Shown: positions 3,032 through 39,897 of the stretch, one piece after another
Layout of the letters: each line of letters begins with the position of its first letter
Numbering within the stretch: the stretch's first letter is position 1
From: Sphingomonadales bacterium
GTDB taxonomy: Bacteria; Pseudomonadota; Alphaproteobacteria; Sphingomonadales; Sphingomonadaceae
DNA: 64,000 nt
Assembly: GCA_004173185.1 (NCBI GenBank)
Contig: SEFZ01000011.1
Span: forward strand, 62,001-126,000
Direction of reading: 5' to 3'
Notes under the pieces: generated by a model
Database searches by the model: none
Told to the model about the DNA's origin: nothing
What the model saw: the letters and a program-made list of their open reading frames with translations, nothing else
Made by a program: the position numbers and the translations under genes

Positions 3032-5770
<2,739 letters not shown>

Positions 5771-5847
5771 ATCTCAGGTTTCCGATTGGCTAGGGTGTAA
5801 TCAAACTGCCCTAGACGGCCCGCGCCCTGCTGCCAAGCCTCGCGTAG

Positions 5848-5908
5848 GCGCATGTACGTACGCGCGCTCATGTACGCGCGCGCCTGTACGCGCATACGCG
5901 TGCGCGCG
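5848..5908. other. Alternating purine-pyrimidine tract upstream of gyrA (potential Z-DNA)
   Basis: Three nearly contiguous runs of strict purine-pyrimidine alternation: 20 nt (5848-5867), 15 nt (5869-5883) and 24 nt (5885-5908). They are built from TGTACG/CGCGCG/CATACG units and give an imperfect tandem look (CATGTACG repeated, then TGTACG). The tract lies in the 300-bp non-coding interval between divergent gyrA and the secreted TPR gene, which otherwise shows nothing I can name. Such sequence is the classic substrate for B-to-Z transition under negative supercoiling. A regulatory role is inference. Confidence 0.75.
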
Positions 5909-6073
5909 AGGAAACCTAACGTGCGCCCGCATGAGAAAGCCGAAAAATGAACCCTCTCATTCAATTGGCGTTCACGCCCTGTGCTGCATCGGGATCTAGA
6001 TGCGCTTGAATGGCGCGGTGCGGCCAACTAGAGGGCTTTCAAACCGCTGCGTTCCCCTTGAGGAGAGTTCCAC

Positions 6074-7372
6074 ATGACGTTTGTTTCGAAGCTCGCGATG
6101 GCTGCTGTGCTGACGCTGGGCACCACTGGGCTCGTCGCAACGCCCGCTTTTGCCCAAAAGGCCGATAAGAAGGCGAAAAATGAGAACGGCGATATCAAGG
6201 TCAGCCCCGAATTCCGCAAGGCTGCAGCAGCCGCGGAGACGGCGATTGCGGCAGCCGCAGCAGCCACGGATGCCAAGATCAAGGCCGACAACCAGGCGCT
6301 GGCCGATACCAGCCTGATCGCCGCCGAAGGCATTGCGAAGAACGACGACGAGAAATATTATGCGGCGTTCCTGCGCCTGCGGCTCGAATTCGCCCGCAAG
6401 AATGACGATGCGCAGCTCAAGGCGTTGAACGTCCTCATCAACAACCCCAAAACCCCGCCCGAGAACGTGAAGCTGTATGGCGCGGTGTTCAACTATCAGA
6501 TGGGCGCGCGTGCTTCGCAGGCCAAGCAGCATGACGAAGCAATCAAATATATGCTGAAGGCGCGCGAACTGGGCTCGACCGAGATCGACGTGCCGATCGT
6601 GCTCGCCAATGCCTATTCGGCAACCGGCAAGAATGCCGAGGCGATCGTCGAGGTCGATCGTGCGATCACGACGGCGAAGGCCAAGAGCGGCAAGGCGCCC
6701 GAGGCCTGGTATCAGTTCGCGATTCCGCGCGTGAATGCAGTGGGCGATCGCGCGGCAATGGCTTCGTGGCTGTCGCGCTTCATCACCGATTATCCGACGC
6801 TCAAGAACTGGCAGTGGGGCGTGCAGGTGTTCCGCAGCACGGCGCCCGCCGGCGCCAACGTCAAGAGTGAGCGGATCGACACCTATCGTCTGCTGCGCGC
6901 CACCAACGCGTTGCCGAACCGCGGCGAATATGCCGATTACGCCTTCGCCGCGCAGCAGTTTGGCCTGCCGTGGGAAGCATTGTCGGTGATCGCCGAGGGC
7001 GAGAAGGCGGGCAAGCTGCCAAAGGGCGATCCGGATGTCGCCAAGACTTTCAAGGCTTCGAGTGCGCAGGTGAGCGGTAGCGGTTCGCTCGAGGCGCTGG
7101 CCAAGGCCGCCAAGACCGGGGAAGATCTGTCGCAGACCGCCGACGCATTCCTCGCATCGGGCAACCAGACCCGCGCGATCGAGCTTTACGATCAGGCGCT
7201 CGCCAAGGGCGGAGTCAACGCGGACGAGGTCAATCTCCACCGCGGCATCGCCTACCAGCAGCTTGGCCAGAAGGATCAGGCGCGCACTGCATTCGCCGCG
7301 GTCAAGGCTGGCCCGCTCGCCAACCTCGCGACGCTGTACACCACGTCGCTCGATCTGCCGCCGCTCAGCTGA
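6074..7372 (+). CDS. Secreted TPR-repeat protein
   Basis: 432 residues with a clear Sec signal peptide (MTFVSKLAMAAVLTLGTTGLVATPAFA|Q) and then a Lys- and Ala-rich linker (ADKKAKNENG; AAAAATDA). Several helical repeats of tetratricopeptide type follow: HDEAIKYMLKARELG near residue 155, YSATGKNAEAIVEVDRAI near 185, and TRAIELYDQALAKGGV near 375. No catalytic motif is visible. It is probably a periplasmic scaffold protein. A good RBS (GAGGAG) precedes the ATG. It is divergent from gyrA, and a strong bidirectional terminator follows it. The precise role is unknown. Confidence 0.8.
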   Translation: MTFVSKLAMAAVLTLGTTGLVATPAFAQKADKKAKNENGDIKVSPEFRKAAAAAETAIAAAAAATDAKIKADNQALADTSLIAAEGIAKNDDEKYYAAFLRLRLEFARKNDDAQLKALNVLINNPKTPPENVKLYGAVFNYQMGARASQAKQHDEAIKYMLKARELGSTEIDVPIVLANAYSATGKNAEAIVEVDRAITTAKAKSGKAPEAWYQFAIPRVNAVGDRAAMASWLSRFITDYPTLKNWQWGVQVFRSTAPAGANVKSERIDTYRLLRATNALPNRGEYADYAFAAQQFGLPWEALSVIAEGEKAGKLPKGDPDVAKTFKASSAQVSGSGSLEALAKAAKTGEDLSQTADAFLASGNQTRAIELYDQALAKGGVNADEVNLHRGIAYQQLGQKDQARTAFAAVKAGPLANLATLYTTSLDLPPLS

Positions 7373-8474: not shown

Positions 8475-10838
8475 GGTGGGTCCGCATTGCGTTTCGATGA
8501 TACTCTGGAGACCGTGCTGGCCGCCGATCTGGGCTCTCCCCAGGCAGCGCAATCGGCATGGCGACAGGTCGTCGATCTGATTGGGCGCAGGCGGGTAGCA
8601 GCGGATAGTCGCGCGATGAGCGTGCTGCGCGCAATTCGCGGCAAGGTGCCCGTCGCCGTTCGTGCCGCCAGCGCTCGCGCGCTCGAATTCGCCGATCCGC
8701 CCGCGCCGCTGGTTCGCCTGTTTGCCACCGACGAGCTGAACGTTGCGCTGCCCGTGCTGCGCAACGCGCGGATGAACTCTGCCGAATGGATCCAGCTGCT
8801 CCCCGATCTCGCGCCCGGCGGCCGCGCGGTGCTGCGCAATCGCCGCGACCTCGGCCCGGTCGTCAAGCGCGCGCTCGAGGCATTCGGCCCGATCGATTTC
8901 GTACTTCGGGACGAAAGCGTGAAGGAAGTGGTCGCGGTGGCGATCGAGGCGGTGGCGATCGCGCCCGAACCTGTTATCGAGCCCGTGATGGAGCCTGTGC
9001 CTGTTATAGAGCCGGAGCCCGTCATCGAGCCTGTGCCGGTTATAGAGCCGGAGCCTGTTATCGAACCCGCGCCTGCTCTCGAAATTGTCGAGGAACTGGC
9101 GGTGCTGGTTGAGCCCGTGGTGGAGGAAGTGCCGGTCGTGTTGCCTGAGCCGGTTGCGGAACTGCCCGAACCCATTGCCGAACTGCCCGTGGAGATCGCA
9201 GCGGAAGCGCCGCTGTTCGTCGCGCCAGAGTATGTCGCCGAAGTCGCGCCGGGGCTGGAGCCGGTTTTGGAGCCCGCACCGGTGCTGGAAACCCCGCCCG
9301 TCACCTTCTGGACGCCCACCTATCTCGCGACGCCTGCTACGGCTCTCGCGGCGGGTGCCGCCGTTACGGACATATTCGCGGGGCCGATTGCCTCCGAAGC
9401 ACCCGAAACTGTTGTTGCGGACGATATCGTTGCGGTAAGTGACGAAGAAATAGAAGATTTCTCGTTCGTCGCGCTCGCGGATCCTGCTGTCGCGTTGCCG
9501 TTTTCCGCAAGCTTTTCGGCTGGCCAGAGCGAAGTTGTTTCTGCCCCGATCCAAAGCGGGACAGTCGAGCCAATCGCCCCCGCCGAAGCGATTGCGCCGG
9601 ACGCATCCGAGTTCCACGGTTCCGAAATGGAAGAGGGTAAACTGTCTGTCGTCGGGCCGTCGGGCGACGCGCTTGATATGCTCATGGGACCGCCGGATCA
9701 GGCTGTCCCGGCGGCGGATGGCGGCACGTTCGAGATCGCCGAAGTGGTCGCGCGGATCGATGCATTCTGGCGGCATCGCGAAGAGACCGGGCCGGATCCG
9801 ATCCAAATTGCCGACACGTTCCGTTTCGAGACCGATGCCAAGGGCGTGTTCCGCTGGGTCGAGGGCGTGAGCCGCTCGGCGCTCGTCGGGCTGTCGCTCG
9901 ATGCACAATCGGGACCGGGCGTTCCCGAAGCTTCGCGCATCGATGGCATCGCCGCCGGTGCCTTCCGCCGCCGCGCCGGCTTCTCGAACGCGCGGCTTTC
10001 GATCGAAGGCGAGTCGGATGCTGCGGGCGATTGGCAGATCTCGGGCATTCCGGTCTTCGATCCCGCCAATGGCCGCTTCACCGGCTATCGCGGCACAGCG
10101 CGCCGCCCGCGCGCCGATGAGCGCGCCGAGCCGGTGCGCCAGACACCGCCGCCGATCCCCGCCGATTCGCTCCGCCAGCTTGTTCACGAGCTGCGCACGC
10201 CGACCAACGCCATCGCGGGCTTTGCCGAGATGATCGAGAGCCAGATGCTCGGCCCGGTCAGCACACCCTATCGCGGCCGCGCTGCTGAGATCCGTGCCCA
10301 GGCGCGCGAACTGCTCGGCGCGATCGACGATCTCGATCTTGCCGCGCGGATCGATAGCGCGGCGCTGGCGCTGGTTCCGGGGCGCGTTGCGCTGCGCCCG
10401 GTGCTGTCGGCTATCGCCGATGATCTCACGCCGCTTGCCGAATTGCGCGGTTCGATCCTTGCACTGCCGATCGACGACCTCGCGGTCACAGGAGACCGCC
10501 GCGCGGTCGAGCGCCTGCTCGCCCGCCTGCTCGCCACGTTGGTCTCGGCCAGCGGCGAGGGCGAACGGATCGGCGTTCATATGACGCACGCCAGCGACGG
10601 CATGATCGCAGTCTCGATCGATCGTCCGCGTGCTTTGGCGGACTATCCGGGTGATTCGGTGCTCGGCATCGATGACGAGGGCGAGGATTCGACCTTGCTC
10701 GGCACGGGCTTCGCGCTCCGTTTGGCGCGTAATCTTGCCCGCGAACTGGGCGGTGCGCTGGTCATTGAGCCGGAGAGCTTGACTTTACGCCTCCCAGCCT
10801 CCGAGAATAAAGAAGTGGGTCAGGCACATCTGAACTAG
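8460..10838 (+). CDS. PAS-domain histidine-kinase-like protein with degenerate ATPase domain
   Basis: 792 residues from a TTG start (an alternative TTG at 8487 is plausible). There is no signal peptide or membrane segment, so it is cytoplasmic. Residues about 1-150 form an Ala/Arg-rich helical domain. Residues about 160-270 are a low-complexity Pro-Glu-Val linker encoded partly by 36-bp tandem repeats. A PAS-like domain (FRFETDAKGVFRWVEGV...GYRGTARR) lies near 450-545. The HisKA helix with an intact phospho-acceptor site (HELRTPTNAIAGF) is near 575. The C-terminal HATPase region lacks the expected N-box asparagines (ARLLATLVSA) and a clear DxGxG G1 box, keeping only a G2-like GTGFALRLARNLA. 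It may be a phosphotransfer scaffold rather than an active kinase. The deacetylase gene follows after 2 bp. Confidence 0.8.
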   Translation: MAPVTGGSALRFDDTLETVLAADLGSPQAAQSAWRQVVDLIGRRRVAADSRAMSVLRAIRGKVPVAVRAASARALEFADPPAPLVRLFATDELNVALPVLRNARMNSAEWIQLLPDLAPGGRAVLRNRRDLGPVVKRALEAFGPIDFVLRDESVKEVVAVAIEAVAIAPEPVIEPVMEPVPVIEPEPVIEPVPVIEPEPVIEPAPALEIVEELAVLVEPVVEEVPVVLPEPVAELPEPIAELPVEIAAEAPLFVAPEYVAEVAPGLEPVLEPAPVLETPPVTFWTPTYLATPATALAAGAAVTDIFAGPIASEAPETVVADDIVAVSDEEIEDFSFVALADPAVALPFSASFSAGQSEVVSAPIQSGTVEPIAPAEAIAPDASEFHGSEMEEGKLSVVGPSGDALDMLMGPPDQAVPAADGGTFEIAEVVARIDAFWRHREETGPDPIQIADTFRFETDAKGVFRWVEGVSRSALVGLSLDAQSGPGVPEASRIDGIAAGAFRRRAGFSNARLSIEGESDAAGDWQISGIPVFDPANGRFTGYRGTARRPRADERAEPVRQTPPPIPADSLRQLVHELRTPTNAIAGFAEMIESQMLGPVSTPYRGRAAEIRAQARELLGAIDDLDLAARIDSAALALVPGRVALRPVLSAIADDLTPLAELRGSILALPIDDLAVTGDRRAVERLLARLLATLVSASGEGERIGVHMTHASDGMIAVSIDRPRALADYPGDSVLGIDDEGEDSTLLGTGFALRLARNLARELGGALVIEPESLTLRLPASENKEVGQAHLN
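8994..9065 (+). repeat. 36-bp tandem duplication encoding PVPVIEPEPVIE
   Basis: Two 36-bp units (8994-9029 and 9030-9065), nearly identical in DNA, within a longer Pro-Glu-Val region of the histidine-kinase-like gene. The reading frame is preserved, so repeat number can vary without frameshift. Confidence 0.85.
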
Positions 10839-39046: not shown

Positions 39047-39142
39047 TGTTGGGGCTCAGCCAAAAATGGCGACGCGGTTTTGTTTGGGCTTAGCCAAAAA
39101 TGGCGACGTGGTTTTGTTGGGGCTTAGCCAAAAATGGCGACG
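39047..39142. repeat. 34-bp tandem repeat (about 2.8 copies) covering the thioesterase stop codon
   Basis: Copies start at 39047, 39081 and 39115 with an exact 34-bp period and only a few differences. Core: CAGCCAAAAATGGCGACG or TAGCCAAAAATGGCGACG. The right-hand copy contains the last codons and stop of the thioesterase gene (VAIFG*), so the gene's 3' end has been amplified downstream. Each unit holds a GCCA/TGGC mini-palindrome. Confidence 0.9.
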
Positions 39143-39897
39143 CCCTGCATCGCATCGGCGATGGGCTCGCCCGCGGCGTTCCACAGCGACATGCGCTGGC
39201 TCGAATAGCCGTCATGCGCGGTGTCGGTGCTTGCGGTGAGGAGCCACCAGCCATTGTCGGTTTTGGGCGCGGGGGTCAGGAAATTGATCTGCCAGGTGAG
39301 CGAGCTGATCGGGACGCCCATGCCGGAGAGCTTCATGCCGGCCGGGGGCAGCGCATCGCCGATCGCCATCAACTCCACAAACGGATGCAGGCCGTCGCGG
39401 GCACGCAGGCGGGCCCAGCGCTGCCATTCGGCGGGACCGGCGCCTTCCTTCACATCGACGAACTCGAAATTGCCGATGAACATCGTGTCGGGGCCGATGA
39501 ACACCTTGGCATCCGGCGCAGGCGCGGGGACGGGCGCGCGGGGGGCCGTGTCATGCGCGAGTTGCGATTGGAGCGCGGACATGAAGACGAAGGTGGCGCG
39601 GAAGCCTAACCCGGCTTCGCTGGAGACATCGGCCTGGATGAACGCGGCGTTGCGGCCCCGGCGCAGCTTGGTGGCGGTGACCGTCACTTCGCCAGAGAGC
39701 GGCCCGATAAAGGCGACCTGCGCCGAGCGGAGCGGCGGGAGATCGGGTTCGAGTTCGAGCGCCGCCTGTAGCGCAAGTGCAGCCGAAAGCCCGCCATAAG
39801 CGGTGCGGCCTTGCAGCCAATCGGGCGTGACGGTGACGCTGAAGCCGCCATCGGGCAGCATGATGCGGGCGGCGAGGATATCGGTGATGGGGGTCAT
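39124..39897 (-). CDS. Acyl-CoA thioesterase-like (double hotdog) protein
   Basis: 257 residues. Two hotdog halves: the first with TPDWLQGRTAYGGLSAALALQAAL (the hotdog helix) and VTVTATKLRRGRNAAFIQADVSSEAGL, the second with SSLTWQINFLTPAPKTDNGWWLLTASTDTAHDGYSSQRMSLWNAAGEPIADAMQGVAIFG. It resembles the TesB-like thioesterase family, which hydrolyses medium and long acyl-CoAs. Its ATG overlaps the stop of the upstream acyl-CoA synthetase (ATGA), so ligase and thioesterase are coupled. The 3' end sits in a 34-bp tandem repeat. Confidence 0.82.
   Translation of the reverse strand: MTPITDILAARIMLPDGGFSVTVTPDWLQGRTAYGGLSAALALQAALELEPDLPPLRSAQVAFIGPLSGEVTVTATKLRRGRNAAFIQADVSSEAGLGFRATFVFMSALQSQLAHDTAPRAPVPAPAPDAKVFIGPDTMFIGNFEFVDVKEGAGPAEWQRWARLRARDGLHPFVELMAIGDALPPAGMKLSGMGVPISSLTWQINFLTPAPKTDNGWWLLTASTDTAHDGYSSQRMSLWNAAGEPIADAMQGVAIFG

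Follow-up and report, generated by a model that had tools for sequence, protein, structure and literature searches.

The stretch of DNA analysed here, called the window throughout, is 64,000 nucleotides long and carries gyrA on its minus strand, behind an alternating purine-pyrimidine tract. The features of this locus are as follows.

3032 to 5770, minus strand: gyrA, encoding DNA gyrase subunit A, 912 aa, TTG start (open reading frame)
5808 to 5813, minus strand: predicted -10 box of gyrA, TAGGGC, with a 17-nt spacer (conservation among relatives)
5831 to 5836, minus strand: predicted -35 box of gyrA, TTGGCA (conservation among relatives)
5838 to 5911, minus strand: full element, read toward gyrA, with CCTCGCG at 5911-5905, CGCGAGG at 5844-5838 and the alternating body in the middle
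5848 to 5908, no strand assigned: alternating purine-pyrimidine tract, in runs 5848-5867, 5869-5883 and 5885-5908
5858 to 5893, no strand assigned: 14-nt tandem repeat GTACGCGCGCGCAT, 2.6 copies, within the tract (Tandem Repeats Finder)
6074 to 7372, plus strand: divergent neighbour, a 432-aa protein with an apparent signal peptide, starting 163 bp past the element

The sequence-only reading had described a 61-bp tract with runs of 20, 15 and 24 nt in front of gyrA. Its coordinates and lengths were exact, and gyrA does lie on the minus strand, the tract occupying the positions 78-138 bp upstream of its start codon. The runs give 56 alternating steps out of 60, to which the full element adds two non-alternating steps at 5846-5848, and sequence comparison finds inverted ends of the same type on the gyrA elements of relatives. 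The claim that such a tract is very unlikely by chance also held: the runner-up among 61-nt stretches of the window has 47 alternating steps (window mean 31.6, sd 3.9), and the maximum over 90 simulated 64-kb sequences of first- to third-order Markov type was 49. A single 24-nt run was reached in one simulated first-order sequence, so the rarity belongs to the whole tract and not to that run alone. By pattern and profile searches, the 24-nt alternating run is found once in the 5,071,242 bases of the genome, at gyrA (RY24 none, reversed phase one), and a dispersed repeat family was rejected as its origin on this ground. The intergenic region used as a nucleotide query gave one other short match, in 1 of 60 genomes, also upstream of gyrA. 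Neither a terminator-like site nor an Rfam match was found near the tract, and we rejected an intrinsic terminator or known RNA family accordingly.

The TTGGCA and TAGGGC boxes make a plausible -35/-10 pair for gyrA, judged by their conservation across relatives. The -35 is exactly TTGGCA in 35 of 110 relatives, with GTGACA/T, GTGGTC or GTAGTA elsewhere. CTAG at 5811-5814 is part of the most conserved word of the region, and the anchor bases at the -10, where the anchor was itself picked by that motif, are C in 95, T in 103 and A in 103 of the 110. The pair was not among the predictions of a generic promoter scan. Whether the tract lay near the promoter or far from it had been left for checking; it adjoins the predicted -35, at a gap of 11 nt from the tract and 1 base from the full element.

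Conservation upstream of gyrA was examined with the N-terminal 200 aa of GyrA as query, which matched a gyrA-type sequence in 120 of the 121 genomes of the genus and is 80-98% identical in 110 or more of them. The upstream regions of 110 of these same-genus (Sphingomonas-like) genomes were compared. The alternating fraction is 0.82 at -71 to -80 and 0.78 at -81 to -90 from the gyrA start, against a background of 0.538 between 300 and 1390 bp upstream (bin sd 0.017, maximum bin 0.589). Within the final 160 bp before gyrA, the top-scoring alternating segment has a median score of 17; a score of 13 is reached just upstream of the -35 in 81 of the 110 loci and in 4 of 877 stretches from elsewhere in these loci, and the gyrA-proximal segment outscores every other 160-bp stretch of its own locus in 88 of 110. 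When genomes were aligned on the TTGGCA -35 (n=35), a choice that does not select for alternation, steps about 12-25 nt upstream alternated in 0.86-0.97 of them. The letters of the tract vary among species while the alternation stays, and an alternating tract is kept in most Sphingomonas-like genomes, which answers the proposed conservation check in the affirmative. About a quarter of the genus genomes are without a strong tract, which is thus dispensable; the clade of G089 and G134 is one that naturally has no long tract. A tree drawn quickly from 300 nt needs 17 changes for presence and absence, compared with 35 when labels are shuffled; being poorly resolved, it supports only a grouping by lineage in which the tract was lost or gained repeatedly.

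The gyrA element that this genus group carries is also present in a record named Sphingomonas faeni (L195), and the genome analysed here is probably a Sphingomonas. Outside the genus, the tract was found in Allosphingosinicella vermicomposti (L199), in g45 (L155) and in five g34 genomes (L160, L163, L275-L277); g34 has a longer leader and its tract is farther from the start codon, yet it adjoins the predicted gyrA promoter. No tract was seen at the gyrA loci examined from Sphingopyxis, Novosphingobium and other alphaproteobacteria. Two records named Staphylococcus cohnii (L241) and Streptococcus hyovaginalis (L259) encode GyrA proteins sharing 74% and 70% identity with the alphaproteobacterial query, and their contigs are probably contaminated or mislabelled. 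One further assembly, G013, carries a GyrA N-terminus on each of two contigs (C89 and C101), so it may mix strains.

Pairwise counts at gyrA gave 78 transitions and 49 transversions in the tract and 133 and 201 in the flank, with even lengths for 44 of 64 tract gaps. These counts are partly circular because the tracts were chosen by their alternation. A position-defined transition test is uninformative at gyrA, where the phase of the tract relative to the -35 varies by clade. We therefore place the weight on the position-defined test at topA and on the unconditioned alternation profile at gyrA.

The topA gene was taken in as a negative control and became the strongest result. Its element, of the form CCT-(YR)7 or 8-AGG, is present in 30 of the 30 genus genomes checked, with altered ends in a few, and CCT-(YR)7-13-AGG describes it family-wide. 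In this genome it is as follows.

G000:C52:61965-61984: topA element, CCTTACGCGTACACGTAAGG

Within the genus it stands 16-22 nt before the start codon and, at nearly all loci where both could be measured, 20-21 nt after TTGACG, and so overlies the predicted -10/start-site region. Nine of ten genomes from other genera of the family (g23, g24, g25, g26, g27, g29, g30) have it, and these other genera also hold the longest cores, of 26 nt (CGCGCGTACGTACACGTACACACGTA). It was not found in g28 or in the readable loci of the other families of the order. With cores defined by position after the -35 (n=41), 40 of 41 alternate at all 13 steps, while the alternating fraction is 0.44 in the spacer and 0.42 downstream. 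Among the 20 distinct 14-nt cores, pairwise comparison gave 980 transitions and 19 transversions, against 2322 and 4037 in the adjacent spacer, pairwise counts being non-independent events; all 19 transversions trace to one sequence. Variation is seen in 13 of the 14 core columns, and in 12 of these it stays strictly inside one class, purine or pyrimidine. Every core has an even length, of 14, 16, 20 or 26 nt. This excess of transitions indicates that selection keeps the purine/pyrimidine class more than the identity of the base. One sequence, CCTCGCGCGTACACGTAAGG, is identical across many species, and the degenerate consensus of the 20-nt form is symmetric around GTAC. End-to-end self-complementarity of the cores matches the chance level (101 of 203 pairs, as against 105 +- 7 in shuffles).

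In this genome both gyrB (G000:C33:14034-16251) and topA (G000:C52:62005-63746), which lie outside the window, appear as two overlapping or adjacent family matches each, as if the assembly contained frameshifts there. The estimated contamination of the assembly is 5.55%.

Alternation is conserved by transitions, and among the genes tested the element is restricted to gyrA and topA. A profile of the gyrA tract with its promoter had gyrA as top match in 12 of 12 genomes; several of the 12 had served to train the profile, so more weight falls on the margin over the next match, and in most genomes the other matches scored far lower, setting aside those in which this tract was read on its reverse strand. 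A topA-only profile searched in 10 genomes placed topA first in nine and gyrA first in the tenth, and gyrA appeared lower down in five more. The exact pattern CCT(YR)7AGG occurs at 64 places in 121 genomes, the reversed control at 3, and in the 30 genomes whose topA coordinates are known, topA accounts for 16 of 19 places. Alternating runs of 20 nt or more in one phase, counted in 12 hand-picked genomes, fall at gyrA in 11 of 24 cases. No element was found at 30 gyrB loci (one match at score 13, in another family), at 20 parC loci (one match at score 13) or at 20 parE loci (two matches differing in shape and place). A general trait of topoisomerase genes was rejected on these results for gyrB, parC and parE, and the regulon of a common regulator was rejected since profiles and exact patterns yield mainly topA and gyrA.

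The sequence-only reading had called the tract strongly Z-DNA-prone, which stands for the long alternation and for a computed threshold lower than that of the surroundings, and does not stand for base choice beyond alternation. We computed the B-Z threshold with the energies of Table 1 in PMC3024258 in a single-run model, with general-knowledge values for the superhelical constant and junction twist. Half-conversion fell at a sigma of -0.0207 for the gyrA promoters and -0.0262 for control stretches taken from these loci (5-95% -0.0287 to -0.0236), values whose order may be trusted in so simplified a model but whose absolute size should not. Against their alternation-preserving shuffles the gyrA tracts show no added Z-propensity (37 of 81 convert more easily; thresholds equal). 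A base choice tuned for Z-DNA, with CG and CA/TG favoured over TA, was sought in the tracts and not seen: TA steps are enriched, CA/TG-containing words are depleted, and GTAC/CGTACG occurs 52 times where 15 are expected. Composition tuned for Z-DNA beyond alternation was rejected on the TA enrichment and the equal thresholds. GTAC stands at many distances from the -35, none of them fixed, and the inverted symmetry of the gyrA tracts exceeds that of alternation-preserving shuffles (433 vs 349 +- 10).

A possible role for the tract is that of a cis-acting, supercoiling-sensing promoter element, kept for its alternation and common to gyrA and topA, a reading we hold tentatively and just short of calling probable. 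The topological sensor originally suggested upstream of gyrA is partly supported, and a role linked to topology becomes far more likely with the unexpected twin at topA; for the gyrA tract itself we infer both the Z-DNA conformation and the sensor function. With somewhat less confidence, we suggest that the element could be a B-Z switch used across the family, conserved as a purine/pyrimidine pattern and placing gyrase and topoisomerase I in one feedback loop without a dedicated regulator protein. Conservation of class fits such a switch because the alternating anti/syn backbone of Z-DNA requires it. If so, the gyrA tract, spanning about -40 to -60 (to about -110 here) directly upstream of the predicted -35, would leave the B form under high negative supercoiling, most likely as left-handed Z-DNA, and would absorb local untwisting; a B-Z junction near the -35 could then lower gyrA initiation, and on relaxed DNA the tract would return to the B form and gyrA expression would rise. 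At topA, the 14-26-bp element would lie over discriminator and start site alike; strong negative supercoiling may aid opening there and raise topA expression. Both responses would bring the cell back to its supercoiling set point, although the B-Z transition in cells, the direction of its effects and this homeostatic role are matters that we infer.

Several observations speak against a Z-type reading. GTAC/CGTACG is enriched although TA steps cost more in Z-DNA, the tracts do not surpass their alternation-preserving shuffles in Z-propensity, and gyrA shows the excess of inverted symmetry. The identity of CCTCGCGCGTACACGTAAGG in many species looks like a base-specific constraint. The topA element, moreover, sits where RNA polymerase melts DNA, so that Z-DNA there could block transcription too. 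The misfits would be resolved by a protein able to recognise alternating DNA in either B or Z form and at differing lengths, and this is the main rival.

Such a protein, which is putative, might in the more conventional case read CCTYRCGYGTACRCGYRAGG-like palindromes as operators and so co-regulate gyrA and topA, for instance as an activator bound upstream of the gyrA -35 and as a repressor bound at the topA start site. These roles suit the positions of the two sites, and the widely shared CCTCGCGCGTACACGTAAGG, the GTAC-centred 20-nt topA consensus, the GTAC enrichment in the gyrA tracts and their symmetry above shuffles are all what an operator would lead one to expect. However, the operator of a dimer needs fixed spacing, and the core length ranges over 14-26 nt at topA and roughly 14-60 nt at gyrA, changing mostly by even numbers, with GTAC at varying distances from the gyrA -35. 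Nearly every topA core column takes both bases of its class, the cores are self-complementary only to the degree of shuffles (101 of 203 pairs vs 105 +- 7), and profiles and exact patterns reveal no wider set of recurring sites. We consider an operator of this kind doubtful, if still a serious candidate. The symmetry could also reflect extrusion of a cruciform or hairpin under negative supercoiling, with alternation as a by-product of self-complementary CG-rich arms. The inverted gyrA ends (CCTCGCG/CGCGAGG, TCACGCG/CGCGTGA, CCCCCGCG/CGCGGGGG), the 13-14-bp arms around a non-alternating loop at some loci (G118, G029) and the symmetry excess of the gyrA tracts point that way, but the topA cores show no such excess, 92% of steps in the gyrA arms alternate where a cruciform has no need of it, and flanks are no more complementary within genomes than between genomes, which leaves extrusion improbable.

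An explanation in which alternation has no role of its own would make the topA core a hard-to-melt, GC-rich, supercoiling-dependent discriminator and let the gyrA tract merely exclude an UP element. The topA core does lie between the predicted -10 and the start site, and GC-rich discriminators render promoters supercoiling-dependent (PMC8422995). GC content nevertheless leaves the 40 of 41 fully alternating cores and the 980:19 transition bias unexplained, and A or T is freely taken by transition in topA cores, so we rate this account as highly improbable. The least credible explanation, and in our view a very remote one, is mutational: slippage and template switching in CG-rich repeats might regenerate functionless tracts. 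The 14-nt tandem repeat in the tract of this genome and the even steps of length change would agree with it, whereas a single fixed promoter position at two functionally linked genes throughout a family does not, nor does the lack of such tracts from the same process at gyrB, parC, parE or elsewhere.

The preferred reading, a supercoiling-sensing element at both genes, has parallels in known systems. In other bacteria, opposing topoisomerase genes are governed homeostatically through promoter DNA topology (PMC5055605). The likeness lies in an element within gyrA and topA promoters, here predicted by conservation, with homeostasis expected; in the known promoters, however, sensitivity is attributed to features of the -10/-35, spacer or discriminator (PMC5055605). 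A GC-rich discriminator should need negative supercoiling to open (PMC8422995), and the topA element is likewise GC-rich and located between the predicted -10 and the start site; it differs in its strict alternation and variable even length, and in having a gyrA copy upstream of the -35. Z-DNA-forming sequences near promoters, as treated by the SIBZ model (PMC3024258), are also alternating, CG-rich, of low computed B-Z energy and located at promoters. Unlike them, the present elements are class-conserved across a bacterial family at two specific genes and prefer TA steps over CA/TG, and their left-handed form would be a presumed one. Palindromic transcription-factor operators share the inverted CCT...AGG ends and the GTAC centre of many copies, but here length and half-site spacing are not fixed, nearly all core positions tolerate transitions, and profiles and exact patterns found no wider regulon.

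An alternating element common to gyrA and topA was described in none of the related papers found. In the open-access literature, no paper joined Z-DNA with the topA promoter or Sphingomonas with the gyrA promoter, which is weak evidence of novelty, subscription journals falling mostly outside that search. The only paper there on Z-DNA and Sphingomonas was a calf-colon study, apparently unrelated by its title and abstract, and searches on Z-DNA, gyrase, supercoiling and topoisomerase promoters returned general models and other organisms only. The use of Z-DNA as a regulatory switch by bacteria has long been argued largely from engineered plasmids. Here selection has seemingly kept a purine/pyrimidine pattern, with the bases drifting, at two genes that set supercoiling in opposite directions. 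The question is directly testable by swaps that alter the alternation without altering base content; if true, the proposed switch would account for the balance of gyrase and topoisomerase I in a large group of GC-rich bacteria.

Other repeats and alternating tracts were encountered in the searches. Weaker topA-profile matches lie near other genes in G082, namely L419 (G082:C1:111800-111816; CTCACGTACGCGCGAGG) and L421 (G082:C5:51103-51121; CACGCGTGCACGCGAGG), and no recurrence of them was noticed in other genomes. Further long alternating tracts in the genus (L035, L039, L041, L042, L043, L046, L050) adjoin short direct repeats (AAGTTGAGAAAGTTGA, GTGACTTTAGAGACTTT, GGAAGGACTGGAAGGA), those of L035, L039 and L041 also adjoining mutually similar genes; this is a separate kind of element. 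In genome G065 (L049) a 24-nt alternating pattern was matched 57 times in one phase and 70 times in the other; many of these matches are near-identical copies of GCGCGCGTGCGTGTGCGTGTGCGC and make up a dispersed repeat family. The window itself contains a 34-nt tandem repeat, TGTTGGGGCTTAGCCAAAAATGGCGACGCGGTTT, in 2.9 copies at 39047-39143, and an 18/36-nt coding tandem repeat of the CGAGCCTGTTATCGAGCC type at 8978-9075, within a 792-aa frame.
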